Assembly: GCF_037975245.1 (NCBI RefSeq)
Contig: NC_092575.1
Location: 759,001-823,000 of the forward strand
Direction of reading: 5' to 3'
Origin: Apostichopus japonicus
Taxonomy: Eukaryota > Echinodermata > Holothuroidea > Aspidochirotida > Stichopodidae
Length of the DNA stretch: 64,000 nt
The translations under genes and the position numbers were made by a program. Position 1 is the first letter of the stretch. The number at the start of each line of letters is the position of its first letter. Below the pieces are notes generated by a model. That model made no database searches. It was not told where the DNA came from and saw nothing but the letters and a program-made list of their open reading frames with translations. This document shows positions 1,888 through 60,624 of the stretch, in pieces.

Positions 1888-4800
1888 TTTAATATAGCCT
1901 AGGCTGCATTGTCTTAATATAGCCTAAGCTGCATTGTCTATGGAGGAGGTTCTCGAGCAGAATTTCACTTTAAACTCGAGAGAAATGTGTTTCTGGATCC
2001 TGTTTAACCTTTATTAACACCCAGACTGAAATATGAGAAAGTTGATTTTTCGTCCAATTTTGATCATTTTGTAAGGTTTTTTCCTTATGATTTTTTCCCT
2101 TATGATTTTTTCAAATTTCGGCCCTTATGATTTTTTCCCTTATGATTTTTTCAAATTTCGGCCAAAATCACGACATTTGAAAATCTTCTCAAACCAATGC
2201 GGTTAACTGATGGCGGCCTTCTGAGTGAACTCAGACCCTTGCAGTGTGAAGGTAGGTCCCTATTCTTTAAGAAAAGCATATTAATGTCAATATGAAATCT
2301 TGATATCATCATTTAATATAGCCTAGGCTGCATTGTCTTTGGAGGCGAAGTCTCGAGCAGAATTTCACTTTTAATTCAGGAGAATTTTACTTCTGGATCC
2401 TGTAAAACCTTTATTAACACCCAGACTGAAATATGAGAAAGTTGATTTTTCGTCCAATTTTGATCATTTTGTAAGGCTATACCCTTATGATTTTTTTCAA
2501 ATTTCGGCCAAAATCACGACTTTTGAAAATCTTCTCAAACCAATGCGGTTAACTGATGGCGCCCTTCTGAATTCTCTCAGACCCTTGCAGTGTGAAGGTA
2601 GGTCCCTATTCTTTAAGAAAAGCACATTAATGTCAATATGAAATCTTGATATCATCATTTAATATAGCCTAGGCTGCATTGTCTTTGGAGGCGAAGTCTC
2701 GAGCAGAATTTCACTTTTAATTCAGGAGAATTTTACTTCTGGATCCTGTGAAACCTTTATTAACACCCAGACTGAAATATGAGAAAGTTGATTTTTCGTC
2801 CAATTTTGATCATTTTGTAAGGCTATACCCTTATGATTTTTTCAAATTTCGGCCAAAATCACGACTTTTCAAAATCTTCTCAAACCAATGCGGTTAACTG
2901 ATGGCGCCCTTCTGAGTGAACTCAGACCCTTGCAGTGTGAAGGTAGGTCCCTATTCTTTAAGAAAAGCATATTAATGTCAATATGAAATCTTGATATCAT
3001 CATTTAATATAGCCTAGGCTGCATTGTCTTTGGAGGCGAAGTCTCGAGCAGAATTTCACTTTTAATTCAGGAGAATTGTGCTTCTGGATCCTGGGAAACC
3101 TTTATTAACACCCAGACTGAAATATGAGAAAGTTGATTTTTCGTCCAATTTTGATCATTTTGTAAGGCTATACCCTTATGATTTTTTCAAATTTCGGCCA
3201 AAATCACGACTTTTCAAAATCTTCTCAAACCAATGCGGTTAACTGATGGCGGCCTTCTGAATTCTCTCAGACCCTTGCAGTGTGAAGGTAGGTCCCTATT
3301 CTTTAAGAAAAGCACATTAATGTCAATATGAAATCTTGATATCATCATTTAATATAGCCTAGGCTGCATTGTCTTTGGAGGCGAAGTCTCGAGCAGAATT
3401 TCACTTTTAATTCAGGAGAATTGTGTTTCTGGATCCTGTGAAACCTTTATTAACACCCAGACTGAAATATGAGAAAGTTGATTTTTCGTCCAATTTTGAT
3501 CATTTTGTAAGGCAATTTGGCCCTTATGATTTTTTCAAATTTCGGCCAAAATCACGACTTTTCAAAATCTTCTCAAACCAATGCGGTTAACTGATGGCGC
3601 CCTTCTGAGTGAACTCAGACCCTTGCAGTGTGAAGGTAGGTCACTATTTTTTAAGAAAAGCATATTAATGTCAATATGAAATCTTGATATCATCATTTAA
3701 TATAGCCTAGGCTGCATTGTCTTTGGAGGCGAAGTCTCGAGCAGAATTTCACTTTTAATTCAGGAGAATTGTGTTTCTGGATCCTGTGAAACCTTTATTA
3801 ACACCCAGACTGAAATATGAGAAAGTTGATTTTTCGTCCAATTTTGATCATTTTGTAAGGCTATACCCTTATGATTTTTTTCAAATTTCGGCCAAAATCA
3901 CGACTTTTCAAAATCTTCTCAAACCAATGCGGTTAACTGATGGCGGCCTTCTGAATTCTCTCAGACCCTTGCAGTGTGAAGGTAGGTCCCTATTCTTTAA
4001 GAAAAGCATATTAATGTCAATATGAAATCTTGATATCATCATTTAATATAGCCTAGGCTGCATTGTCTTTGGAGGCGAAGTCTCGAGCAGAATTTCACTT
4101 TTAATTCAGGAGAATTTTACTTCTGGATCCTGTAAAACCTTTATTAACACCCAGACTGAAATATGAGAAAGTTGATTTTTCGTCCAATTTTGATCATTTT
4201 GTAAGGCTATACCCTTATGATTTTTTTCAAATTTCGGCCAAAATCACGACTTTTGAAAATCTTCTCAAACCAATGCGGTTAACTGATGGCGCCCTTCTGA
4301 ATTCTCTCAGACCCTTGCAGTGTGAAGGTAGGTCCCTATTCTTTAAGAAAAGCACATTAATGTCAATATGAAATCTTGATATCATCATTTAATATAGCCT
4401 AGGCTGCATTGTCTTTGGAGGCGAAGTCTCGAGCAGAATTTCACTTTTAATTCAGGAGAATTTTACTTCTGGATCCTGTGAAACCTTTATTAACACCCAG
4501 ACTGAAATATGAGAAAGTTGATTTTTCGTCCAATTTTGATCATTTTGTAAGGCTATACCCTTATGATTTTTTCAAATTTCGGCCAAAATCACGACTTTTC
4601 AAAATCTTCTCAAACCAATGCGGTTAACTGATGGCGCCCTTCTGAGTGAACTCAGACCCTTGCAGTGTGAAGGTAGGTCCCTATTCTTTAAGAAAAGCAT
4701 ACTAATGTCAATATGAAATCTTGATATCATCATTTAATATAGCCTAGGCTGCATTGTCTTTGGAGGCGAAGTCTCGAGCAGAATTTCACTTTTAATTCAG

Positions 4801-7800
4801 GAGAATTGTGCTTCTGGATCCTGGGAAACCTTTATTAACACCCAGACTGAAATATGAGAAAGTTGATTTTTCGTCCAATTTTGATCATTTTGTAAGGCTA
4901 TACCCTTATGATTTTTTCAAATTTCGGCCAAAATCACGACTTTTCAAAATCTTCTCAAACCAATGCGGTTAACTGATGGCGGCCTTCTGAATTCTCTCAG
5001 ACCCTTGCAGTGTGAAGGTAGGTCCCTATTCTTTAAGAAAAGCACATTAATGTCAATATGAAATCTTGATATCATCATTTAATATAGCCTAGGCTGCATT
5101 GTCTTTGGAGGCGAAGTCTCGAGCAGAATTTCACTTTTAATTCAGGAGAATTGTGTTTCTGGATCCTGTGAAACCTTTATTAACACCCAGACTGAAATAT
5201 GAGAAAGTTGATTTTTCGTCCAATTTTGATCATTTTGTAAGGCTATACCCTTATGATTTTTTCAAATTTCGGCCAAAATCACGACTTTTGAAAATCTTCT
5301 CAAACCAATGCGGTTAACTGATGGCGCCCTTCTGAGTGAACTCAGACCCTTGCAGTGTGAAGGTAGGTCCCTATTCTTTAAGAAAAGCATATTAATGTCA
5401 ATATGAAATCTTGATATCATCATTTAATATAGCCTAGGCTGCATTGTCTTTGGAGGCGAAGTCTCGAGCAGAATTTCACTTTTAATTCAGGAGAATTGTG
5501 TTTCTGGATCCTGTGAAACCTTTATTAACACCCAGACTGAAATATGAGAAAGTTGATTTTTCGTCCAATTTTGATCATTTTGTAAGGCTATACCCTTATG
5601 ATTTTTTTCAAATTTCGGCCAAAATCACGACTTTTCAAAATCTTCTCAAACCAATGCGGTTAACTGATGGCGGCCTTCTGAATTCTCTCAGACCCTTGCA
5701 GTGTGAAGGTAGGTCCCTATTCTTTAAGAAAAGCACATTAATGTCAATATGAAATCTTGATATCATCATTTAATATAGCCTAGGCTGCATTGTCTTTGGA
5801 GGCGAAGTCTCGAGCAGAATTTCACTTTTAATTCAGGAGAATTGTGTTTCTGGATCCTGTGAAACCTTTATTAACACCCAGACTGAAATATGAGAAAGTT
5901 GATTTTTCGTCCAATTTTGATCATTTTGTAAGGCTATACCCTTATGATTTTTTCAAATTTCGGCCAAAATCACGACTTTTCAAAATCTTCTCAAACCAAT
6001 GCGGTTAACTGATGGCGCCCTTCTGAATTCACTCAGCCTTGCAGTGTGAAGGTAGGTCCCTATTCTTTAAGAAAAGCATATTAATGTCAGTATGAAATCT
6101 TGATATCATCATTTAATATAGCCTAGGCTGCATTGTCTTTGGAGGCGAAGTCTCGAGCAGAATTTCATGTTTAATTCAGGAGAATTGTGCTTCTGGATCC
6201 TGTGAAACCTTTATTAACACCCAGACTGAAATATGAGAAAGTTGATTTTTCGTCCAATTTTGATCATTTTGTAAGGCTATACCCTTATGATTTTTTCAAA
6301 TTTCGGCCAAAATCACGACTTTTCAAAATCTTCTCAAACCAATGCGGTTAACTGATGGCGCCCTTCTGAGTGAACTCAGACCCTTGCAGTGTGAAGGTAG
6401 GTCCCTATTCTTTAAGAAAAGCATATTAATGTCAATATGAAATCTTGATATCATCATTTAATATAGCCTAGGCTGCATTGTCTTTGGAGGCGAAGTCTCG
6501 AGCAGAATTTCACTTTTAATTCAGGAGAATTGTGTTTCTGGATCCTGTGAAACCTTTATTAACACCCAGACTGAAATATGAGAAAGTTGATTTTTCGTCC
6601 AATTTTGATCATTTTGTAAGGCTATACCCTTATGATTTTTTCAAATTTCGGCCAAAATCACGACTTTTGAAAATCTTCTCAAACCAATGCGGTTAACTGA
6701 TGGCGCCCTTCTGAGTGAACTCAGACCCTTGCAGTGTGAAGGTAGGTCCCTATTCTTTAAGAAAAGCACATTAATGTCAATATGAAATCTTGATATCATC
6801 ATTTAATACAGCCTAGGCTGCATTGTCTTTGGAGGCGAAGTCTCGAGCAGAATTTCACTTTTAATTCAGGAGAATTGTGCTTCTGGATCCTGTGAAACCT
6901 TTATTAACACCCAGACTGAAATATGAGAAAGTTGATTTTTCGTCCAATTTTGATCATTTTGTAAGGCTATACCCTTATGATTTTTTCAAATTTCGGCCAA
7001 AATCACGACTTTTCAAAATCTTCTCAAACCAATGCGGTTAACTGATGGCGCCCTTCTGAGTGAACTCAGACCCTTGCAGTGTGAAGGTAGGTCCCTATTC
7101 TTTAAGAAAAGCACATTAATGTCAATATGAAATCTTGATATCATCATTTAATACAGCCTAGGCTGCATTGTCTTTGGAGGCGAAGTCTCGAGCAGAATTT
7201 CACTTTTAATTCAGGAGAATTGTGTTTCTGGATCCTGTGAAACCTTTATTAACACCCAGACTGAAATATGAGAAAGTTGATTTTTCGTCCAATTTTGATC
7301 ATTTTGTAAGGCTATACCCTTATGATTTTTTCAAATTTCGGCCAAAATCACGACTTTTCAAAATCTTCTCAAACCAATGCGGTTAACTGATGGCGGCCTT
7401 CTGAATTCTCTCAGACCCTTGCAGTGTGAAGGTAGGTCCCTATTCTTTAAGAAAAGCACATTAATGTCAATATGAAATCTTGATATCATCATTTAATATA
7501 GCCTAGGCTGCATTGTCTTTGGAGGCGAAGTCTCGAGCAGAATTTCACTTTTAATTCAGGAGAATTGTGTTTCTGGATCCTGTGAAACCTTTATTAACAC
7601 CCAGACTGAAATATGAGAAAGTTGATTTTTCGTCCAATTTTGATCATTTTGTAAGGCTATACCCTTATGATTTTTTCAAATTTCGGCCAAAATCACGACT
7701 TTTGAAAATCTTCTCAAACCAATGCAGTTAACTGATGGCGGCCTTCTGAATTCTCTCAGACCCTTGCAGTGTGAAGGTAGGTCCCTATTCTTTAAGAAAA

Positions 7801-9269
7801 GCACATTAATGTCAATATGAAATCTTGATATCATCATTTAATATAGCCTAGGCTGCATTGTCTTTGGAGGCGAAGTCTCGAGCAGAATTTCACTTTTAAT
7901 TCAGGAGAATTGTGCTTCTGGATCCTGTGAAACCTTTATTAACACCCAGACTGAAATATGAGAAAGTTGATTTTTCGTCCAATTTTGATCATTTTGTAAG
8001 GCTATATACCCTTATGATTTTTTCAAATTTCGGCCAAAATCACGACTTTTGAAAATCTTCTCAAACCAATGCGGTTAACTGATGGCGCCCTTCTGAGTGA
8101 ACTCAGACCCTTGCAGTGTGAAGGTAGGTCCCTATTCTTTAAGAAAAGCACATTAATGTCAATATGAAATCTTGATATCATCATTTAATATAGCCTAGAC
8201 TGCATTGTCTTTGGCGGCGAAGTCTCGAGCAGAATTTCACTTTTAATTCAGGAGAATTGTGTTTCTGGATCCTGTGAAACCTTTATTAACACCCAGACTG
8301 AAATATGAGAAAGTTGATTTTTCGTCCAATTTTGATCATTTTGTAAGGCTATACCCTTATGATTTTTTCAAATTTCGGCCAAAATCACGACTTTTCAAAA
8401 TCTTCTCAAACCAATGCGGTTAACTGATGGCGCCCTTCTGAATTCACTCAGCCTTGCAGTGTGAAGGTAGGTCCCTATTCTTTAAGAAAAGCACATTAAT
8501 GTCAATATGAAATCTTGATATCATCATTTAATATAGCCTAGGCTGCATTGTCTTTGGAGGCGAAGTCTCGAGCAGAATTTCATGTTTAATTCAGGAGAAT
8601 TGTGTTTCTGGATCCTGTGAAACCTTTATTAACACCCAGACTGAAATATGAGAAAGTTGATTTTTCGTCCAATTTTGATCATTTTGTAAGGCTATACCCT
8701 TATGATTTTTTCAAATTTCGGCCAAAATCACGACTTTTGAAAATCTTCTCAAACCAATGCGGTTAACTGATGGCGGCCTTCTGAATTCACTCAGCCTTGC
8801 AGTGTGAAGGTAGGTCCCTATTCTTTAAGAAAAGCACATTAATGTCAATATGAAATCTTGATATCATCATTTAATATAGCCTAGGCTGCATTGTCTTTGG
8901 AGGCGAAGTCTCGAGCAGAATTTCACTTTTAATTCAGGAGAATTGTGTTTCTGGATCCTGTGAAACCTTTATTAACACCCAGACTGAAATATGAGAAAGT
9001 TGATTTTTCGTCCAATTTTGATCATTTTGTAAGGCTATACCCTTATGATTTATTTCAAATTTCGGCCAAAATCACGACTTTTAAAATCTTCTCAAACCAA
9101 TGCAGTTAACTGATGGCGCCCTACTGTTTTCACTCAGACCCTTGCAGTGTAAAGGTTGGTCCCTATTCTTAAAGAAAAGCACTTTAATGAAATCTTTATG
9201 TAATAATTTAATATAGCCTAGGCTGCATTGTCTTTGGAGGCGAAGTCTCGGGCGGAATTTCACTTTTAA
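1888..9269. repeat. Satellite array, ~345-bp monomer, about 21 copies
   Basis: Each monomer begins near TTTAATATAGCCTAGGCTGC. The GCCTAGG landmark lies at 2321, 2667, 3012, 3357, 3705, 4051, 4397, 4742, 5087, 5432, 5778, 6121, 6466, 6811, 7156, 7501, 7846, 8193 (as GCCTAGA), 8536, 8879 and 9216, so the period is 343-348 bp. Most monomers keep an XhoI core (CTCGAG) and a BamHI site (GGATCC). The first monomer (1888-2320) has two small internal duplications and both edge monomers are the most diverged, as expected where unequal exchange homogenises the middle. The array stops abruptly near 9269. Sporadic 84-codon ORFs inside monomers are not conserved from copy to copy and are not genes. A pericentromeric or dispersed origin cannot be told from this window. 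Confidence 0.97.
2321..5777. repeat. Higher-order repeat: five-monomer block duplicated in tandem
   Basis: The five monomers at 2321-4050 recur in the same order at 4051-5777. Diagnostic variants pair up at a spacing of about 1.73 kb: TGTAAAACC in the first monomers of each block, GTGCTTCTGG with GGGAAACC in the third, and an extra T in the poly-T in the fifth. The fourth monomers have diverged most (GGCAATTTGGCCC versus GGCTATACCC). Confidence 0.85.
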
Positions 9270-12449: not shown

Positions 12450-12965
12450 CATACCCACAGTAATTAGAGGATACACTAAAGGCATCCTGGGGATAAAATC
12501 CCGATAGCAGGATCAATCTTCTGATCATCATAGAGGTAAATAGTCTTTGCTGATCAATGATATGTTCATAGCCCATACCCACAGTAATAAGAGGATACAC
12601 TAAAGGCATCCTGGGGATAAAATCCCGATAGCAGGATCAATCTTCTGATCATCATAGAGGTAAATAGTCTTTGCTGATCAATGATCTGTTCATAGCCCAT
12701 ACCCACAGTAATAAGAGGATACACTAAAGGCATCCTGGGGATAAAATCCCGATAGCAGGATCAATCTTCTGATCATCATAGAGGTAAATAGTCTTTGCTG
12801 ATCAATGATATGTTCATAGCCCATACCCACAGTAATAAGAGGATACACTAAAGGCATCCTGGGGATAAAATCCCGATAGCAGGATCAATCTTCTGATCAT
12901 CATAGAGGTAAATAGTCTTTGCTGATCAATGATCTGTTCATAGCCCATACCCACAGTAATTAGAG
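12450..12965. repeat. 124-bp tandem repeat x 4 (248-bp dimer)
   Basis: The landmark CATACCCACAG falls at 12450, 12574, 12698, 12822 and 12946, an exact 124-bp period. Alternate copies carry GATATGTTCATAG and GATCTGTTCATAG, which shows that the last amplification step duplicated a 248-bp dimer. Copies are otherwise almost identical. Confidence 0.96.
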
Positions 12966-14344
12966 GATACACCCAAGGCACAAGTATTTTCTTTGCCAGT
13001 AACAAACACTTGCTGGTATCCCTGCAAAACAAAATATGGATATCTAGCAGCATAACAGTTGTACTCAAATCTGGTCAAACATTTTCTTTTGAAAATTCAA
13101 GGATCGGAATACATCATGATTTGTGTCAAAACAACACCTTGGTTATACACTACACTAACATACAAACAGAATGAAAGTTTCAACCGCTCCATTGCACGCC
13201 TCTCCCTCCCCCACCAAAAAAAACCCCCAAAGTACTAAAGAGCAAGTTAATATCCTGTTGAGAATACTACGAACGTTTGTTAGTCCTATTACATTAACTA
13301 CCAACATGTTATGCAGTGTTCCAATTCATACATATTAACTACATTTAATCAACCAGAACATTTCCCTCCACATTTCCACATATTTGTTGATAGCAGACTA
13401 CCATCGAGTGCGCATCCTGACACCTGAAAACTTTCTGACCAAAGTAAAGATAGAATGTGATGTGACTGTAGCAATCCTTCCTTTAAAACATTTCACAATA
13501 CAAATATTATTATCAAAACATAGCCGATTGGAAATTCATCCGCTTTCTATAGCACAATTTTTCTGCATATATGATATGAATAAAAATATTTATGAAGTTT
13601 TAGCTGAAATGTGGTCAACATCAGTTGCTCTTACAAATTTTATAAACATTTCCACTTAATTTGCTTCTTTGTATGCAATGCATTCATTCAAAAGTGATTC
13701 GATTTAACCATCCAACTTTTGCCAGAGGCAAATAATGCGTGAGGTTATGAGCTTGAAGACTAAGGCCTTATAATTATTCACTACATCATGCTACTGTACT
13801 TCAAAGAGCTTTCATGTCTTTGTTTTGTAAGAGATTTGAATGGAAATCTTCACGTGTCTCACACGTTTGCTAGTTTATTAATATTCACAAAGATGATTCT
13901 TGATCCTCTTCTTTTCAAAAGATCAACTTTTAATGCTTGCTGCTACTTTGCCAAGGTTGATCATGTGATCGCATACCTGTCATTGCTTGCCTGAATTTAT
14001 GCAAAAACAATATTTGTATAATCTTTGATATATATATATATATATATATAGCCTCTAGACTAATTGGTATTGTCTTAGCTAATTAATATTAAGGTAGTAA
14101 CAAACTCTCATTTACACACAGGTAGAAGGGAACCTGAAAAGGTAGCAAAAAGAAAATTACCATTGGTTATAAAACAAAACTGTCTAGAAGTTAATAATTC
14201 TAATACTATAACCCTGAAATCTTTTCTGAAACGTGTTGCTTCAAAACTGACTTGTAGGAACACTATTTAGGACTAGCAGAACACTCATCAACAGATCCTC
14301 AGCCTAAGATATATTGCATTTCTATTAGAAGTCCTGTTATGACT

Positions 14345-14576
14345 CCATTGCATGGGACACCCATCTCCACTTACCAGGTTCAGGGATAACCACTCCCCCA
14401 TCAACCCTGTTGTATATGGGACACGTATCTCCCCTTAACAGGTTCAGGGATAACCACCCCCGCATCAACCCTGTTGTACATGGGACACGTATCTCCACTT
14501 AACAGGTTCAGGGGTAACCAACCCCGCATCAACCCTGTTGTACATGGGACATCTATCTCCTCTTAAAGACCAACTA
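14345..14576. repeat. 64-bp minisatellite, left part of a split array
   Basis: GTTGTA landmarks at 14409, 14473 and 14537 define a 64-bp unit containing CTTAACAGGTTCAGGG and CATCAACCCT. The array is interrupted at a TTAA and resumes at 16193. Confidence 0.93.
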
Positions 14577-14749
14577 TGGAGACTTTTCGATGAACATAAA
14601 ATCCCACCATTTTTCATGTATGTAATCCTTAACTGACTCCAATTACATTGCTGTAATTAACTTGACCAATTTCGGACGTTAAATAAGTGAAAATGGGACG
14701 AAAAGTCAGCTTCTATTTCAGACATTCCTGAAACATTCCTAAGACATCA

Positions 14750-14780
14750 GGTGACCATGTGACGTCAACGTTTGTATACC
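14750..14780. repeat. Subterminal inverted repeat, left arm
   Basis: It pairs with 15957-15987 at 28 of 31 positions. It holds the palindrome TGACGTCA and ends in GTTTGTATACC. It is probably a transposase-binding or structural element of the TTAA transposon. Confidence 0.8.
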
Positions 14781-14864
14781 TCACTCACAACTATACTTTT
14801 AGTGTGTAAAGTCGTATACTTGAGCTGCCAAAAACATCAACGATATCACTCCTTTTTCCTCAAA

Positions 14865-15110
14865 ATGTCACAATTCTGTGTTGTTGGAGGTTGCAGTTAT
14901 ACCTCATCCAACAAAAGCATCAGCATTTTTAGAATTCCGAGTAAAAGAACCGACGTAAAACGCCGCAGACTTTGGATCAATTTTTTGAGATCCACGCGGA
15001 AAGATTTTTCAGCACCCGGAGTATCTCATGCCCATGAGTCCACATGCATGACCCTGCTTCTGTGTATGCTGCAAATGTCTCATTCTGTGAAAATTATATA
15101 CTGTCGATAG
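14865..15110 (+). pseudogene. THAP-domain fragment inside the transposon
   Basis: The ORF from the ATG at 14865 begins MSQFCVVGGCSY and continues with FRIP, a basic stretch, LWINFLR and KDF. This fits the first half of the C2CH THAP zinc finger: an N-terminal C-x4-C pair, an F-x-x-P motif and a conserved Trp. The second zinc pair, normally near a VCSxHF motif, is missing; the frame continues with SAPGVSHAHESTC and soon ends. I read it as a truncated or mutated N-terminus of a transposase, or an exon whose partner is lost. An upstream in-frame Met at 14772 gives the longest ORF, but similarity begins at 14865. Confidence 0.6.
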
Positions 15111-15956
15111 CTGTGTCGGACCATGGTCGGACATAGCTAATGTGAAATTGACCGTAAACACGCCCTGGACGTCCTTACATGTAACATTATATCACGCAAT
15201 TGACAGTAATATATTTACTGTAAGAGATGACCGTATATATATACCGTGCCAAGGGTATAGCATTGTTAGTACATGTACGGTAGTTAGTTACAACTCTCGC
15301 CGGCGTTGGCTCACAGCATGTGTAAATAGCCATGTTAGGATTTATCTATTTCATTTGTTGTATTCCAGTATCGTGAGTTCGTGATACATGTGTAATATTG
15401 TCCGTTCTGTTTATTCCGACATCTGCATGGTCCAAGGAGTTGAATAAAAACAGTAGTATGTAGCGATCGGACGTTTTATTTCGTTAGTGACTGTCCTGTG
15501 ATTGTGGGATGTTAGTACTGGTCAAGGCCTGTTTCAACTAGACCTAACTCTATGGAATTACACAGACTCACGGTAGTTTTTCGCCCAGGTTTGAACAAGA
15601 AACGTGGATTAGGATGTTCACTGCTAAATTTGTTTATTGACAGGATACCTTTTCTGTGTTTGTATACTTTTGGATATTAAAACGAGTAAGTACTATGTAA
15701 GTATATTGTACCGTATACGGACCTATTGACGCTACGCTATGTAAAAGATGCCTCCATTTGAGTGGAAATTTTGCTAATAAAATAAGCAATTTAACTAAAC
15801 TTTCTGCTTATAATTGTCTTAAAACTTGTTGTTAACCTTCATGTGTTCTTGTTTTAAGCTAACAGCTTTTCAAACGCTCGAAATTGGAAGTCAAAAACAG
15901 TACAATTGTTCGCTATCTGTGTACAAACGGTGCCTATATCAGCGTTTGATTTTCGC

Positions 15957-15987
15957 GGTATACAAACTTTGACGTCACACGGTGACC
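15957..15987. repeat. Subterminal inverted repeat, right arm
   Basis: Inverted partner of 14750-14780, with GGTATACAAAC at its start, TGACGTCA in the middle and GGTGACC at its end. Confidence 0.8.
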
Positions 15988-16192
15988 AGAGGCTCCTTTG
16001 GGTCAATCTCTGTTTTCAGACATTCCAGAGGTTCATGTCACGTGACTACCCAAAATGTCCATTTTCGTGGTCGTTTTTGATGGGTTATAGTAGGTTTTCG
16101 AAGATTATTTTTTACACATGTTGATTATGGGTATGTAAACTCCTAAATTAATGGAAAATCTCAACAACAAAAATTGCCTCCATATTTGGTCT

Positions 16193-16425
16193 TTAACAGG
16201 TTCAGGGATAATGACCCCCACATCAACCCTTTTGTACATGGGACATCTATCTCCTCTTAACAGGTTCAGGGATAACCAACCCCGCATCAACCCTGTTGTA
16301 CATGGGACATCTATCTCCTCTTAACAGGTTCAGGGATAACAACCCCCACATCAACCCTGTTGTTCATGGGACATCTATCTCCTCTTACTAGGTAAACGAC
16401 CACCCCCCCATCATCCCTGTTTTAA
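16193..16425. repeat. 64-bp minisatellite, right part of the split array
   Basis: Three further units and a decayed fourth continue the array interrupted by the transposon. They lie 190-420 bp downstream of the ZDHHC5/8-like stop codon and could fall in its 3' UTR. Confidence 0.93.
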
Positions 16426-16615
16426 CACGACTCTGGATGCAAGATGGAGGAGTACGACTCACAGACCTGATCATGAAGACAGAACAGCTGTAAACTTTGT
16501 CTAAATGTTGGCTGTGACACCAGACAAAGGATTCTCTCTTCTTCTCCAGGTTTAAAGATGTCATTCTTCACAGTACTTTAAGGTTCATCTGTCATCCTTG
16601 CATCTGCCATTTCTT

Positions 16616-17368
16616 TCAGACAGATACTTCGTATGTAGAGAATACAGTTCTATCATCAGTCTCATAGGAGACACCATGTTTAGTTTGCGGTGATTTGTGA
16701 TGAACGTAATGTCTGGCCCGGCCTGAATGGTTGTTGCTAGGGTGACCGCTAGGGTGACCACGATGTCCGTTATGTTCAATAATATCATCGGCTTCCTCTA
16801 TGTCCTCGTTTGCTTTCAATGCGGTTACAAATGAGATTGGTCTCCTTGTTCGAGCCGAATCTCCATTGCCCATCTGAGTGGGAGACTGGGGTAGGTGTCT
16901 CCCCGAGGGATAGGGCATGTGGTTAGGGCCGTGTCCATTACTCCTTTTGGAGTAATGGTTTCCCACCCCTGGTATCGGATGGTGACCAAGATGATTGCCT
17001 GTGGCCTGACTCTTTGCACTGCTCGACGAAGGAGTCGTACTGGAGGACTCCCAGTCCAGTTTACCTCTCCTGGACCTGGGACTACTCAAAATGTCTGAGC
17101 TACTGTGAGAGGGGCTGGTGGATTTGCTGTCATTACTAAAACTGGTATCTTTGCGGCTGTACCGTATGTGTTTGCTGCTGTGTGAAGACGGTGAGGCTCT
17201 GTTGGTCTGCTGGATCTGGTAGAGATGAACCTGGTTGACTGAAGATACCGGTGGTGGTGGGGGAGGGGGCTCTGCTTCGCAATCATTTCCCTGACTGGTT
17301 TCTCCTATGCTTCTCTGATCAGCGACAGGATAGGTGGCAGTATGATTATCATCCACCTGCACATGATT
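16616..17368 (-). CDS. ZDHHC5/8: ZDHHC5/8-like exon 8 (disordered tail and PDZ ligand)
   Basis: 250 codons plus stop (TGA at 16616-16618), following TTTTCAG. It starts NHVQVDDN, similar to the VKLSDN/VKIMDN motif in human ZDHHC8/5, then [10 protein letters not shown], a Ser-rich region, a His/Gly-rich region, [18 protein letters not shown] (480-497), and ends [13 protein letters not shown]. The last four residues, EVSV, keep the hydrophobic-x-hydrophobic pattern of a class II PDZ ligand. Upstream read-through to 17566 is intronic. Confidence 0.93.
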   Translation of the reverse strand, partial: NHVQVDDNHTATYPVADQRSIGETSQGNDCEAEPPPPPPPVSSVNQVHLYQIQQTNRASPSSHSSKHIRYSRKDTSFSNDSKSTSPSHSSSDILSSPRSRRGKLDWESSSTTPSSSSAKSQATGNHLGHHPIPGVGNHYSKRSNGHGPNHMPYPSGRHLPQSPTQMGNGDSARTRRPISFVTALKANEDIEEADDIIEHNGHRGHPSGHPSNNHSGRARHYVHHKSPQTKHGVSYETDDRTVFSTYEVSV

Positions 17369-20300
17369 CTGAAAATATAAACAAATCAACTTTATCAACT
17401 TAGAACATGTTTGTTTGTCAAGTACATACAGTAGTAGTTCCCCAAAGTTGACATTACCTGACACACACAACGTTTTCCCACGAAACCCGATGCTTTCCGA
17501 GGGTTTCACTTTTTCACTTCTGAAAATGCGTTGTATAATTCCCGACGATACTGACCGTCTATTCATGAACGGATTACCTTGAGTTTACTTCCCCTTAAAA
17601 GCGCCGAAAACCATCGTTAACCCTGACGGTTCATAAACTAATAGACTGGGGAAATAATAAGCTGAGTTAAAAGAGCTTTGAACACTAACTCAAAGATTGT
17701 ATAAGACTTCCCTCCTTTAAGACTCTATACAACGGCCAATAGTAATTCATGCATGATTTGATGAGACTTACAAATAAAATCAATTCATTTCATTTGTGTG
17801 TGTCTTCAGTGTTGATCTTCTTGACTCAAACCAGCATTTAATAATTCTTCCAAAAGATAAGTAAGCAAGAAGTTTTCGCAGGAACCGTAGCGGAAAACGA
17901 ACTTGTGTTAAAAAGAACCAAATGCAAAAAGCCTGCGTAGTTGTTTCTTTGTATCCCAATATAACTGCTGTCAGAGTTTGGGATTCCTTGCTTTTATCAG
18001 AATTGCATTTTTGTTCAATGGAAGTCACAAAGGTTCATGGTTATGGGGTAAACAGAGCCCCTTTGTGGACCATTAATTGATTGACTACAAATGTACACAG
18101 TCACTTTTTAGACTTCCTGTTTGTTATACGTACACGAAAGACAGAGATTTAGAAAATTCTGTATACTACAGTTGGTCTACTACCCCCTCCGACTTTTGAC
18201 CATACTTTCTCCAAGGCATCATCTACATGCTACCGAGGTTCTACCCTTTCAAAGGTAGTTTTCTGTTTATATATTTGGTGTAAAGTTTACAGAGTAGCCA
18301 CACGCTGCATCAAAGACTGCATACTTTTTGTACGCGCAGACTGCCAGGAATGTAACTTCTATTAACTACTACTGTATGATGCTGCATATTGTGCTATAAG
18401 GTGATTCATATTTACTACATTCATGGACAAGATCAACAGCTACAGAAACAAAAGCAGATCGTCACTGGCTTCACATCAAGAATTTCCGACACAAATTTGT
18501 TGCATTGTTTAATCTTAAAGGACACTACTAATTATCAAACTTGAAAATGTGCAAACCATGCAAATTTCTGTTCTCATTTTGTTACATCAGCATAAACCTA
18601 ATAAACAATAGTTTGCCTATAGATAGAATCCTGCTATGTGACAATAAAATTATAAGGTTATAGACTGAATGGCATATCAAGTGAACTAAATGATAACATA
18701 TGGATTTCTGGATGGAATCACCAAATTCTAGAACAAGACACTGCACATTACAACAAAAAGGAGCAAGCATTATATCTTCTTAACAGCTTTGCATTATAAG
18801 ATACCCAAACAGGAAATTCATTACTAGTTATGTGCCTAACGTATGATGAGCTTGCACTTTCGTATATTAAAGTTACTTAATGTGGTACACATTGTAACCA
18901 TTGAGGCAGTCAGTTCTTCATGTAGAAAACTAACGTCAGTTCTTTATGTAGAAAACTAACAAAGTATTCAGGAAGTTTTATGTCCTTGTTGCTGCTTTAT
19001 ATGTCTTACATTTACTTCAGGTATAAAACCAACTAAACATATCTTGTCAAATACATCAAAATTACACATCAGTTAGACTCAACATTTGTCTCCCACCTCA
19101 TCTTCCAAAACCTCCAACCCACTTTATACTGACCTCTTCATCAAGAAATCTCCCGTAGGCATTTTTGCCCAAAATACTAAATTAATTCAATCTCCATATG
19201 CTAGTCTGGTCTATACAAATTCCTTCTTCCTGCAAATCTTCCAAAAAACCCTGACACTCAATCCCCAGGGACTCCATCATTTAGAGTTGTTTGTCAACAA
19301 ATTTTCGCCAACAGCACTTATCATATATATTTAAAGGCTGCATATTACATGTACACAACTTAAGACCTCCATATGCTCCAAAGTTCCATCACATTAATTA
19401 AATTATTGGTGAAGTTCAGACAGACTACAAGACATGAATCTGGCTTCCCTATATTTAAGTCCACCTTTCAATTGGGCCTACTGTAAATTGTGAGTTTTGC
19501 AGCAGGTTTGAACCGCTTTGAGTAAACCTGGATATCTGCAATCATGAGGATATATATTATCCTTTACCTTGGAATTTGCATTCAGCTGGTTAATGTTGTT
19601 GACTTGTGCCGTCAGAGATACAGGGGTATTTGATATACCATTTGCACCGTGGCTAGAGGGTTGGTATTTAGCTGCTGTTGCCAATACTACTCTATCTTTG
19701 TGATGCACATATCTGAGAAAAGAAAAGTAAGGAAAATAGATTAAACAAAAAAGTACATTTCCAGCTGAAAAGGTGAAATAATCTGGAAAATGACAAACTC
19801 ACTTTTAGAGTGTCACAGTGGATGGTATTATAGAATCAGAGTGTTAAAACTCCTCCCAGATGTTGGGTTAAAATCTACCCAGGTTGGGTTAAAATCTTTA
19901 GAAATTACTTCAAATACTTATTAGAGTCACCTTCTTCCTACTACCAACACCAAACTAGAGGAAAAGGATGGATCAGTTTTCTGATAGAAAATCACAAATT
20001 AAAATCTCCTTAGCAAATATCCAGACTGCTTTGAACTACCAACCATGTCATTTAAATATAACCATCCTTTGGACAATCAAAATCAAACAAAGACTGGTAA
20101 TTTTATTTCTATCCACTTTGGGAATTTAGATTCGATGGGAGAAATTTTACTTCACACCAATTTGAAAGTTTATTCCAAATTAGACATGAACAATGATATG
20201 TATCTTCAAGGACTGACTACAAAGAAAACTGTAGTCATGGCAACAGAGATATTCTAGCAGCTCTAAATTAGCTGCATGACGAAGTCAACTATTGTTCTTT

Positions 20301-56700: not shown

Positions 56701-59700
56701 GGTGGGCATGGCAGGAGGTTTGACACTCCAGTAGAAGTGTCATTTACTTTACTGTATTGGTTGCAGTTGAAAATTTTGATTATATACATTAAATGCTGGT
56801 TACCAACACAATTCACAGATTTCATGAAAGTTTTGTTCTGGTGTTTACTTATTTAATTTAAGTTAAACTTCCAGTAAACCAGCAATTTTGTGTGTTCTAA
56901 TGAAGGCTATTTGTTTTAGACAGTTAGTAAAACATTCAACAACCAGACGTAATATTGTCACTGGATTTTGGATAATTGTGAGCCCTGTTGTGAACAGATT
57001 CCTCGTTTATTATTAATGAAAGTACATATGGGACCTACGTATCAACAATATTATTGATCTGTGATAATACTATATGTAAATCGCATTAATAATGAAATTA
57101 CATTTAGGACCTATAGCACATGTCAACAATATTATTGATCTGTGATAATACTATGTAAATCGTTTCATTAATAATGAAATTACATTTAGGACCTATTGTA
57201 CATGTCAACGACATTATTGATCTGCGATAATACTATATATAAATCGATTCTCTCAAGCTTATACAACATCTTACAAATGTAAAAGTTTTCACACTGAAAG
57301 TTACCAATAAACCAATAATATCTGTAATGATATTAAGGAATTTAAAAGAAACAGTCATAAATCTCAAAACTGTTCACCCAAGAAGTGAGACTTCATGTAT
57401 TTCCCATCAGAAACTGCCATTTTAAGCATTAAACTGGTTCCCTGTTCAGACCACTTATCCAAGCATCTATGGGAAGAGTTTGTCAAAATATTTCCTGAAT
57501 CCTGTCTCCTATGTGCATTTCCTTTCTTTTTTTCAATTGTCAGCTCTTGAAGGCGACTCGTGACAACACAAAGCTGAGGCGTCAGCTGAAAATTGTGACA
57601 GCAATCATGCTCATCCCGGGAAGAAACAGGAATACCCAAGAGAGCTCACCACCATCTAATCAGCCGAAAGTGACAACAAAGAGCTCGCAGAATGGTCCTT
57701 CAGATGTGCCTGTACCTGAAACCAGCATCGATGTCTCCGTGGAGAATGATAAACCATCCAATAGTGCTCTTCCCAGTCCAGCACGTACATGTCAAAATAC
57801 CACCAGTGTAGTAACACTGCCTTCTGTGACAGTGAGCTTATCATCCCCATCATCTTTGTCAAGTTCCTCATCTTCGTCATCACTTGATACAGATAGCAGT
57901 AGTGATGCAACAGAGCAGCTTGGAGGAAGGAATACTGATGTAACCGTCACTGCCCCATCAGTTATATCGAGGAACGATCATTTACCTATTGAAAGCACCT
58001 CCTTGGTCACCAACTGCACTGCAAGTGTTAGGAATCAGTCATCACCATACCTATCTGGTGACTCCATCTCGCCTGCCTCTGTCACCACGAGTAAGGAAAC
58101 TAGCAGCAAACATCAATGTGATGAGAATTCCCTGATGATGAGAACCATCACTAGTTCTCAATCTCCTTGTAGCTCTTCATCATTCACCAATACTTCAAAC
58201 TCCCTGTGCCAATCCCAGTCCACCAGAGACACTGGTCCTTTAGTACTTAACAAACTTTCTTCTTTCTCATCACCAAATGAAAGGCTAGCAATTGTCGACA
58301 CGCCCCTGTCCTTGAACCAAACACAACGTTTACAAAGTGAAGCAGATAAATTACCAGGAATAATTCACCCTGCCTCTGTTTCTTCTGAAATGACTTCCAC
58401 AATGGTTCAATGCTATGTAAGGCTGCCAGAGGGAGACATTTCCCCTTGTTCTGCATCGGACATGGTAACACAACAGAGCACCTCTGCTGTACCCATTACT
58501 AATTCCTCTGAGAACACATTGGATTTTCTTCCTGTCAATGTTTCTGGTGGAACTCTGATTCAAGCTGAGCAAGAAGTTGTAAGTATGCCTCTCAGTAGAG
58601 ACGGAGATAATGTAAGTCATGAGGGATTAATTCAGGCAGATACTAAACTTCGATCAGGAACCGGAAAGACTTCGTCAGGTAGCGTGGTTAAAATTCCCGC
58701 AAGAAACAAGAAGAAACAACAGTCACCATCATCCTCTGTTAGAGCTCCTCTCGGTAAAAATATGAGCGGCACTCACCTCTCTGCGGAGAGCAGCTCAAGG
58801 CTACTGATGAGTTTAGCTACCAAAGTAATGGAGAGAGCTCTAACTAATGCAAGGAAACCAGAGGACACAAGAAAACATTCAGCAGGTTTGAGCAGCAAGA
58901 AAACCCTGAAGACAAATAGTAATACTAGAGGACCGTTACGGTTTGTATCAGGGGATCCAAACACTGTCGTGGGTAGAGGGAAGAGTGTGTCAGATACTGT
59001 GAAGAAGAAAACTGCTTCAACGTCAAAAGAGTCCAGTACAGCTGCAGGGGATGGTGATGTTGTACATAACGATGGCAGGATAAGTGTTTCCTCAATGTCA
59101 GAGATCTCCAGTACTGATAGAGGTGTGATAACTGTACCTGCTCTACCTCTAACTACAGCTTCTGATAAGAGACCAACTGATTCCATAGTTACCAGTACAA
59201 ATATCTCCGCAATTGAGAGACCTTCCTCGTTATTGACAGAGGATCTCGACAAGCTGTCGACCACATTATCCAACCAGATAAAGGACACGTTGGCAACGAT
59301 AAGTAGCGACTCGCCCTTGAATGTGTCACTTGAAGCAAGTGACAGTTTCCCAGGGCAGTCTACTATAGCTTGTTCTCAGAGCATGATGGCAGGGATTAAT
59401 CAACAAGAGCAAACCCGTACAGAAGGGCAACTATGTGACGATATAAGCTCAGTAAGAGACGAGCCCACCGTACAGGTGAACCAATCAAATGATTGCGTTG
59501 ACGCAATGAGCTTAGATGTAAACCAAAGAGAGTTTTCTAATTCAGCAATATCTAATTTGGGGCATAAGGAGCAATCTTCCTTCAATCTTCTCGATGCTGG
59601 CGATAAAAGTTCCAATCCAGTAAAACCTTGCGAGCCTGCCGATAGAAGAGTTAATAGTGAAATAAGCAATCAGGCACGTAAGAGAGCACTCACCAAAATA

Positions 59701-60624
59701 GTGGATACGGACTTTGAAGCTCTTAGTCCAGGTATCTCGTCGATGGTAGCATCAAGCTCCTCCTCCTCCACCTCCTCATGTAATGGGATTCCTACGCCAA
59801 TCGGTACGGGTACATCATTGTTCTCAAGTGATGGTACTATTGAGTCCTTACTGGATCTACGCGAATACGATCTGTCGTCTGTAGTAGATTCACTCTCTGC
59901 ATCAGATAATCATGAGAGGTCCGGTGCAGATGAGATTCCAGACACTGAGTCTCTCCTTGAACTCTTCGAAAGAACTTTCAGTGGCGGAGGACAGGACATG
60001 AGCGTTATTGACCAGTTGTCATACCCTTCCATTCTAGAAGAAAGAGAAGAAAGGAGCGATTTCCCCTCATATTCTTCACAGTTGTCTTCCATTTTCTTGG
60101 CCAACTCGGACAATGAGCAAAGTTTGCATGAAAGAGATAACGTTTTGATCGACATTGCCAACTTCTGTGATAATAACATCTCTCCATTGCTCACAAGTGC
60201 CAGCCCTTCTCACAGTTCAAATTTCTTGTCAATCCTACGAGAAATGGAGGACAACCAGACCAACATCGGTGAGTCTCTGTCTCAAGCAAGCTCTCATTTG
60301 AGAGACAGAGAAGATAACGAGACCGACAGAAGCCAGATATCAGCCAATCAACTCAACCAATCGGAAGCAGCAGCAGCCTCAAGGTTAACTGACGACAACA
60401 CTTTGGACAACCACAGAGGAGCCAGTGCTGCCTGTAGTCCAACCTTAGAGATCAACAACGTGAACAGTCTGCTGTCAGAATTGAGAGAGGGTGAAAAACA
60501 AGATTCTCGCAGAAGGAAACATGAAAAGCGGAAAGGTAAGAAACGATCGAGGAGTCGAGAAAGAAGTCGAAAACCAAAGAAAAAGAAACGGAAAAGGAAT
60601 GGCAATACTGAGTTACTTTCATGA
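53693..60624 (+). CDS. Zinc-finger/coiled-coil protein with RS-Lys tail, 6 coding exons, ~1,270 aa, family not recognised
   Basis: Join: 53693-53710, 54153-54354, 54702-54889, 55461-55545, 56171-56409, 57544-60624. All junctions are GT-AG and in phase. Order in the protein: a C2H2-like zinc region 25-64 (C41, C44, H59, H64, with C25/C30 before it); a second finger C102, C105, H118, H128; a linker; a coiled coil about 202-270 crossing the exon 5/6 junction; a Ser/Thr-rich region with a serine run about 340-365; an acidic, Leu/Ser-rich stretch in the last third; and a basic tail from about 1227 with KGKKRSRSRERSRKPKKKKR. The tail looks like a nuclear localisation or RNA-processing type sequence, so a nuclear protein is likely (inference). 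I cannot name an ortholog. The 1,026-codon last exon is mostly predicted disorder. Confidence 0.82.
54153..54354 (+). CDS. Zinc-finger gene, exon 2 (first zinc fingers)
   Basis: Acceptor TATTTTTCAG, donor GTACAT. It encodes AHPSIRVKGFENVWEPVICT onward, with CPLCPLKVC, then KMHFRVKH. The C-x2-C-x14-H-x4-H spacing suits a C2H2-type finger. Confidence 0.85.
54702..54889 (+). CDS. Zinc-finger gene, exon 3 (second finger)
   Basis: Acceptor CCTCTTCAG, donor GTGAGATAC. It encodes FFNLKCFSHC and HWHCHRCGSVSTKKNELQSH, then KGKH. The Cys/His-rich start (C80, H83, C84, C89) could add another zinc site. The donor lies in the first unit of the 47-bp array. Confidence 0.87.
54888..55169. repeat. 47-bp tandem repeat x 6 spanning a splice donor
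   Basis: Units start AGGT at 54888, 54935, 54982, 55029, 55076 and 55123, an exact 47-bp period. Each reads AG|GT(G/A)A..., followed by AAAGCATGTAATGGC and AGATACACATAGT. The first AG|GT is the exon 3 donor, so the array copies the exon-intron boundary. Confidence 0.96.
55461..55545 (+). CDS. Zinc-finger gene, exon 4 (Lys/Asn-rich linker)
   Basis: Acceptor CATTTTCAG, donor GTATGT. It encodes NINQGMNDLKSKQKDKNLPS and AQRPSNKH. It is a short, low-complexity linker; support is from phase and splice sites only. Confidence 0.75.
56171..56409 (+). CDS. Zinc-finger gene, exon 5 (coiled coil)
   Basis: Acceptor CCTCTTCAG, donor GTAATT. It encodes VTTQTLSEPASVLLNRTVST then a heptad-like stretch LVERTIHLEENILSLKNEKN to KRFKEK, with Leu/Ile at a and d positions, continuing as LLKATRDNTKLRRQL in exon 6. 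Confidence 0.85.
56410..57543 (+). other. Zinc-finger gene, intron 5
   Basis: It contains donor-like partial copies of the exon 5 end near 56472-56610 (see findings) and an 81-bp tandem repeat at 57008-57248. A G-tract lies near 56693-56703. Confidence 0.8.
57008..57248. repeat. ~81-bp tandem repeat x ~3
   Basis: CAACAATATTATTGATCTG-type landmarks at 57043, 57124 and 57206 (the last as CAACGACATTATTG), each with GATAATACTAT and GTAAATCG-like words and AATGAAA.TACAT. Confidence 0.9.
57544..60624 (+). CDS. Zinc-finger gene, exon 6 (1,026 codons, Ser-rich, basic tail)
   Basis: Acceptor TCAATTGTCAG; stop TGA at 60622-60624. After the end of the coiled coil the sequence is Ser/Thr/Asn-rich with no fold that I recognise. 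Short hydrophobic-acidic patches such as SLLDLREYDLSSVVDSLSAS and ESLLELFERTF could be interaction motifs. The tail is RS/Lys-rich. The length of the open frame in AT-rich DNA and the in-phase upstream exons make it real coding sequence. Confidence 0.92.
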   Translation, partial: LLKATRDNTKLRRQLKIVTAIMLIPGRNRNTQESSPPSNQPKVTTKSSQNGPSDVPVPETSIDVSVENDKPSNSALPSPARTCQNTTSVVTLPSVTVSLSSPSSLSSSSSSSSLDTDSSSDATEQLGGRNTDVTVTAPSVISRNDHLPIESTSLVTNCTASVRNQSSPYLSGDSISPASVTTSKETSSKHQCDENSLMMRTITSSQSPCSSSSFTNTSNSLCQSQSTRDTGPLVLNKLSSFSSPNERLAIVDTPLSLNQTQRLQSEADKLPGIIHPASVSSEMTSTMVQCYVRLPEGDISPCSASDMVTQQSTSAVPITNSSENTLDFLPVNVSGGTLIQAEQEVVSMPLSRDGDNVSHEGLIQADTKLRSGTGKTSSGSVVKIPARNKKKQQSPSSSVRAPLGKNMSGTHLSAESSSRLLMSLATKVMERALTNARKPEDTRKHSAGLSSKKTLKTNSNTRGPLRFVSGDPNTVVGRGKSVSDTVKKKTASTSKESSTAAGDGDVVHNDGRISVSSMSEISSTDRGVITVPALPLTTASDKRPTDSIVTSTNISAIERPSSLLTEDLDKLSTTLSNQIKDTLATISSDSPLNVSLEASDSFPGQSTIACSQSMMAGINQQEQTRTEGQLCDDISSVRDEPTVQVNQSNDCVDAMSLDVNQREFSNSAISNLGHKEQSSFNLLDAGDKSSNPVKPCEPADRRVNSEISNQARKRALTKIVDTDFEALSPGISSMVASSSSSSTSSCNGIPTPIGTGTSLFSSDGTIESLLDLREYDLSSVVDSLSASDNHERSGADEIPDTESLLELFERTFSGGGQDMSVIDQLSYPSILEEREERSDFPSYSSQLSSIFLANSDNEQSLHERDNVLIDIANFCDNNISPLLTSASPSHSSNFLSILREMEDNQTNIGESLSQASSHLRDREDNETDRSQISANQLNQSEAAAASRLTDDNTLDNHRGASAACSPTLEINNVNSLLSELREGEKQDSRRRKHEKRKGKKRSRSRERSRKPKKKKRKRNGNTELLS

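Follow-up and report, generated by a model that had tools for sequence, protein, structure and literature searches.

A probable internally deleted, non-autonomous Kolobok-type transposon within a 64-bp minisatellite of Apostichopus japonicus

Introduction

The signature by which Kolobok transposons are told apart from piggyBac elements has been given as a TTAA target combined with 5'-RR and YY-3' termini (PMC9587614). In the ten full-length Kolobok copies (XKol) tabulated for Xenopus, which are 6.8–13.9 kb long, AG is found at both ends in all ten and TTAA at 19 of the 20 flanks, and Kolobok transposases are described in the same paper as usually carrying a THAP domain, whose features are given as C2CH, P-W-F and AVPTIF (PMC6004289). 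It may be, however, that THAP is not general in Kolobok, since the term has no occurrence in the main text of the Kolobok-lineage study, where other zinc fingers are described instead (PMC9587614). Two further groups are relevant here, namely the T2-MITEs of Xenopus, presumed to be non-autonomous Kolobok elements, which have TTAA and ends starting with AG (PMC6004289), and KolobokP of molluscs and other animals, which has Kolobok-type termini together with long direct repeats, of about 450 or 660 bp, at its ends, and for which non-autonomous members of 1.7–3.3 kb have been reported in oyster (PMC9587614). Outside Kolobok, P elements are well known to occur as non-autonomous copies with internal deletions, among them KP, which retains a THAP-encoding piece; the target duplications of P and P-like elements are 7–8 bp long (PMC7776569).

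The element described here lies in a 64,000-nt stretch of the Apostichopus japonicus genome (contig NC_092575.1, positions 759,001 to 823,000; hereafter the window, with positions counted from its first letter). With XKol it shares a TTAA duplication, 5'-AG ends in an inverted repeat and the beginning of a THAP domain, but at 1.6 kb it is shorter than the tabulated copies, and unlike them it has neither a DDE core nor a complete C2CH, nor was any H2CH finger found. Its ends begin with AGACC, as against AGGRR in the T2-MITEs, and it has kept a coding relic. Identity with KolobokP was considered and rejected, as a repeat search over 14300–16450 revealed no long terminal direct repeats, the element having instead families of 16- and 15-nt direct repeats. 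Deleted P elements such as KP resemble it in retaining part of a THAP coding sequence, although the duplication here is TTAA; the eight bases to its left (CCTCTTAA) and right (TTAACAGG) do not constitute a 7–8 bp duplication of the P-element kind. In our view it is probable (roughly 80%) that this is an internally deleted, non-autonomous Kolobok-type DNA transposon, present as a single insertion and mobilised in trans.

Boundaries, ends and subterminal repeats

The features of the locus are collected in Table 1. The element is a genuine feature, with ends, target duplication and a subterminal repeat; its G+C content is 38%, against 36% for the whole window. The two 15-bp terminal inverted repeats (TIRs) are identical at 14 of 15 positions, and the termini read AG...CT, i.e. 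5'-RR and YY-3'. When the window was scanned for the combined pattern of target site duplication (TSD) and TIR, allowing up to three mismatches, only these two sites were recovered, with 0.07 expected by chance. There are 642 TTAA sites in the window, and among pairs of these lying 100–8000 bp apart the element is the only one with an inverted-end match of at least 13/15. Two further pairs score 12/15, which is unremarkable given that this is also reached in randomised windows: in 60 of these, a mean of 1.25 pairs scored at least 12, the best pair scored 13 (in seven windows), and none scored 14. Aligned locally with each other, the two terminal 260-bp segments of the element scored 48, a value that none of 500 randomised pairs equalled, the largest among these being 33. 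All random sequences used in this work (windows, end pairs and elements) were drawn from first-order dinucleotide frequencies.

Table 1 Features of the element and its flanks (positions in the window; "." indicates no strand).
Feature	Position	Strand	Basis
64-bp minisatellite left of element, including left TSD	14351-14566	.	TRF, 3.4 copies
Left TTAA TSD	14563-14566	.	Read directly; script check
Whole element, 1626 bp	14567-16192	+	Ends, length and composition computed
Left TIR, AGACCAACTATGGAG	14567-14581	+	Repeat search, end comparison, pattern and TTAA-pair scans
Left copy of the 34-nt subterminal inverted repeat (88% complementarity between copies)	14747-14780	+	Repeat search and core pattern search
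ORF of 81 aa from ATG: N-terminal half of THAP, then no family match to the stop	14865-15110	+	Pfam
Imperfect palindrome, 32 nt, arms 14/16, from the ORF stop codon	15108-15139	.	Repeat search
Right subterminal inverted repeat, 34 nt	15957-15990	-	Repeat search and core pattern search
Right TIR, AGACCAAATATGGAG	16178-16192	-	Repeat search, end comparison, pattern and TTAA-pair scans
64-bp minisatellite right of element, including right TSD	16193-16387	.	TRF, 3.0 copies
Right TTAA TSD	16193-16196	.	Read directly; script check

Inside the two ends, beginning at 180 and 202 bp respectively, lies the subterminal pair. Its 31-bp core, searched for with up to three mismatches by means of a pattern derived from its own two copies, was found in the window only at 14750–14780 (+) and 15957–15987 (−), with a chance expectation of 0.00. 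In Galileo, the THAP domain binds several sites within the long ends of the element (PMC3688188), and by analogy the subterminal repeat is a plausible, if putative, binding site here.

The preliminary description of this DNA had proposed clear inverted ends, a TTAA duplication and a 31-bp subterminal repeat, all of which are borne out by these results, the last as part of a longer pair. Of the span it gave, 14573 to 16196, the right-hand limit stands as the final base of the TSD on that side, but the left-hand one does not, as the element starts at 14567 and its TSD at 14563.

The minisatellite target and its empty sites

The left and right flanks are units of one 64-bp array, so that the sequence obtained by joining them can be compared directly with other unit junctions of the same array. 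When the joined flanks are compared with each of the six remaining junctions over 84 bases, the number of identical positions is 80 for the junction that ends at 16324, 77 for 16260, 75 for 14438, 75 for 14502, 61 for 14374 and 54 for 16388, the last two junctions being the outermost. TTAA is retained in four of the six (CTCCHCTTAACAGG), and the two outermost have TTAC. The empty site that had been reported in neighbouring units is thus present, and since an intact unit junction matches the joined flanks at up to 80/84 positions, the proposed order of events, array first and insertion afterwards, is likewise supported, with the qualification that the array may since have been partly homogenised.

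Variation among the units is consistent with this. The unit directly to the left of the element (14503–14566) is identical at 63 of 64 positions to one beyond it (16261–16324), and a variant, ACATCTATCTCCTC, is common to the former and to the three right-hand units, while the two full units further to the left have ACACGTATCTCC; the element therefore sits within a stretch of one unit variant, which fits its having landed in a pre-existing array. The two nearly identical units are separated by the element and by unit 16197–16260, which matches them at 58 (14503–14566) and 59 (16261–16324) of 64 positions, and their near-identity may hint at an alternating pattern of units.

Coding content

The only family match within the element is to positions 1–46 of the 87 of PF05485 (Pfam; E 5.8e-5; score 24.2 bits, cutoff 23.9). 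It falls in the 81-residue ORF, which becomes 112 residues long if started from an upstream TTG at 14772; when the THAP frame was read across the whole element with X at stop codons, the score was 21.6 bits, which is under the cutoff. The only match to a solved structure up to E 1 was a weak one, to THAP domain-containing protein 2 (2d8r_A; E 0.081, residues 4–52 of 81). The ORF contains one C-x4-C pair, starting at residue 5, and, as judged by eye, a proline and a tryptophan near the places expected for THAP, and a search of it for C-x2-H and AVP found neither. By Pfam, no second THAP half was present in any of the six frames of the element, although a domain half as short as this could escape the filters. 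The THAP finger is therefore as had been suggested, i.e. lacking its second zinc pair.

Pfam transposase models gave no match to the element in six frames up to E 1, and the Kolobok DDE core with C/DxxH and its zinc finger is absent by the same six-frame comparison. It follows that the element makes no transposase of its own, in agreement with the earlier suggestions that the transposase core is missing and that the element is non-autonomous. A deleted copy would be expected to be without the DDE core, so that its absence bars autonomy, while the descent of the element from such a parent is something that we infer.

The palindrome that begins at the ORF stop codon has arms matching at 14/16 positions, as compared with a best of 13/16 among 200 randomised elements, and might possibly be a rearrangement scar. 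As a deletion scar it was not retained, being above chance yet standing without any other support.

Searches for other copies

Neither the ends of the element nor its subterminal repeat occur elsewhere in the window. When the element was compared by BLAST with the remainder of the window, 22 matches of 23–28 nt were obtained, all at E 0.30, which are taken as chance; 21 of them involve a single 23-nt piece (element positions 124–146) matching successive units at 2039–9019, nearly all of which lie within a 345-bp satellite.

In a collection of viral contigs, 98 stretches matched the 15-bp end pattern, but in none of the 98 was the end preceded by TTAA, and none was followed by a facing partner end in the stored sequence up to 10 kb away; 91 pattern matches to the THAP ORF yielded no confirmed relative, and nothing matched a 23-nt segment of the subterminal repeat. 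As these contigs are viral, absence from them says little. Among the main texts of open-licence papers, four 13-nt forms of the element ends occurred in four papers, none of them on transposons judging by title, and no text combined Kolobok, minisatellite and nonautonomous, which is no proof of an undescribed family.

Other features of the window

A tandem-repeat scan of the window returned 24 rows, some of them overlapping, at a score of at least 150. They include the satellite just mentioned (2137–9269), a highly uniform 7-kb array of 20.7 copies of a 345-bp unit with 97% matches, and a second minisatellite (12450–12980) of 4.3 copies of a 124-bp unit with 98% matches. To the right of the element an open frame on the minus strand (16616–17584) encodes 322 residues, including 51 serines and 25 prolines and ending in FSTYEVSV, and has no counterpart in Pfam at E values up to 1. 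Beyond its stop codon the near edge of the 64-bp minisatellite is 229 bp away and the element 424 bp away, distances at which both may possibly lie in or near a 3' untranslated region. A larger open frame (57499–60624; 1041 residues, with a lysine/arginine-rich end) probably belongs to a host gene, as one large coding exon; it has two Pfam matches only, both far under their cutoffs (E 0.22 and 0.7).

Assignment and alternative explanations

In its TTAA duplication, its AG...CT termini and its partial THAP domain the element agrees with the published features of Kolobok, which is the basis for the present reading, and its ends differ from those of beetle piggyBac elements, which mostly begin with CCC. 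Since the DDE core is missing, membership of Kolobok rests on the ends, the target and a marginal half domain; THAP is also found in P elements and in host proteins. The target by itself does not discriminate among the superfamilies that use TTAA, and one might therefore suppose the element to be a non-autonomous member of another of these, piggyBac or Sola3, that has captured a THAP fragment. Sola3 prefers a TTAA target. Two open-licence papers that name Sola3 do not give its target in the passages concerned. For piggyBac, the beetle elements do mostly have TTAA duplications, as seen here, but five of their six 5'-end motifs start with CCC and the sixth is CACGTT (PMC12732532), whereas the present element starts with AGACC; moreover, THAP has been reported, in one paper, as usual for Kolobok transposases (PMC6004289). 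We regard such an origin as improbable, and the original suggestion that TTAA and THAP together point to Kolobok would seem, from the sequence, to hold, Kolobok being likelier than piggyBac.

Two other explanations, each compatible with assignment to Kolobok, concern what the half finger does. Some small P elements are able to code for a repressor, for example the 207-residue KP protein (PMC7776569), which still binds DNA (works cited in PMC7776569), and the ORF here begins with ATG and is open across the start of THAP, so that a truncated protein might conceivably be made and repress transposition by occupying the ends. However, the THAP match does not extend beyond position 46 of the 87 in the model, and the ORF is without the C-x2-H and AVP that are features of the complete domain (PMC6004289); neither folding nor DNA binding is likely for an 81-residue product of this sequence, and a role of this kind is very doubtful indeed. 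Equally doubtful is the idea that an overlooked second exon completes the finger and so gives a whole product: a weak candidate splice donor, GGA/GTATCT, with its GT at 15021, does lie a few bases beyond the point at which the THAP match ends, but 14981–15130 contains no GTRAG donor, and the six frames show no second THAP half (subject to the same filter effect noted above).

For the internally deleted Kolobok-type element that is preferred here, the sequence of events would be as follows. A transposase produced elsewhere would bind the terminal and subterminal inverted repeats, excise the element and insert it at the TTAA of one 64-bp unit, duplicating the TTAA. The half THAP finger would be a relic of the transposase gene of a parent element, the remainder of that gene, including the DDE core, having been lost, probably by internal deletion like that of P elements. 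Assignment to Kolobok, mobilisation in trans and deletion are the parts of this reading that we infer; mobilisation in trans rests on one insertion, as no second copy was seen in the window, and the inner 1.1 kb could instead be, for example, captured DNA rather than what is left of a deleted parent.

Implications

That the element might represent a previously undescribed Kolobok subfamily, defined by AGACCAA ends, the 31-bp subterminal repeat and deleted half-THAP copies that are stable and repeatedly mobilised, is a tentative suggestion, and on balance we doubt it. It appears to be an ordinary relative of Kolobok, non-autonomous, and it leaves the understanding of how such elements work unchanged. 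Its ends and subterminal repeat do, however, provide a handle for finding an autonomous relative, and the insertion, with its empty target preserved alongside, is a clean natural record of a single TTAA insertion.
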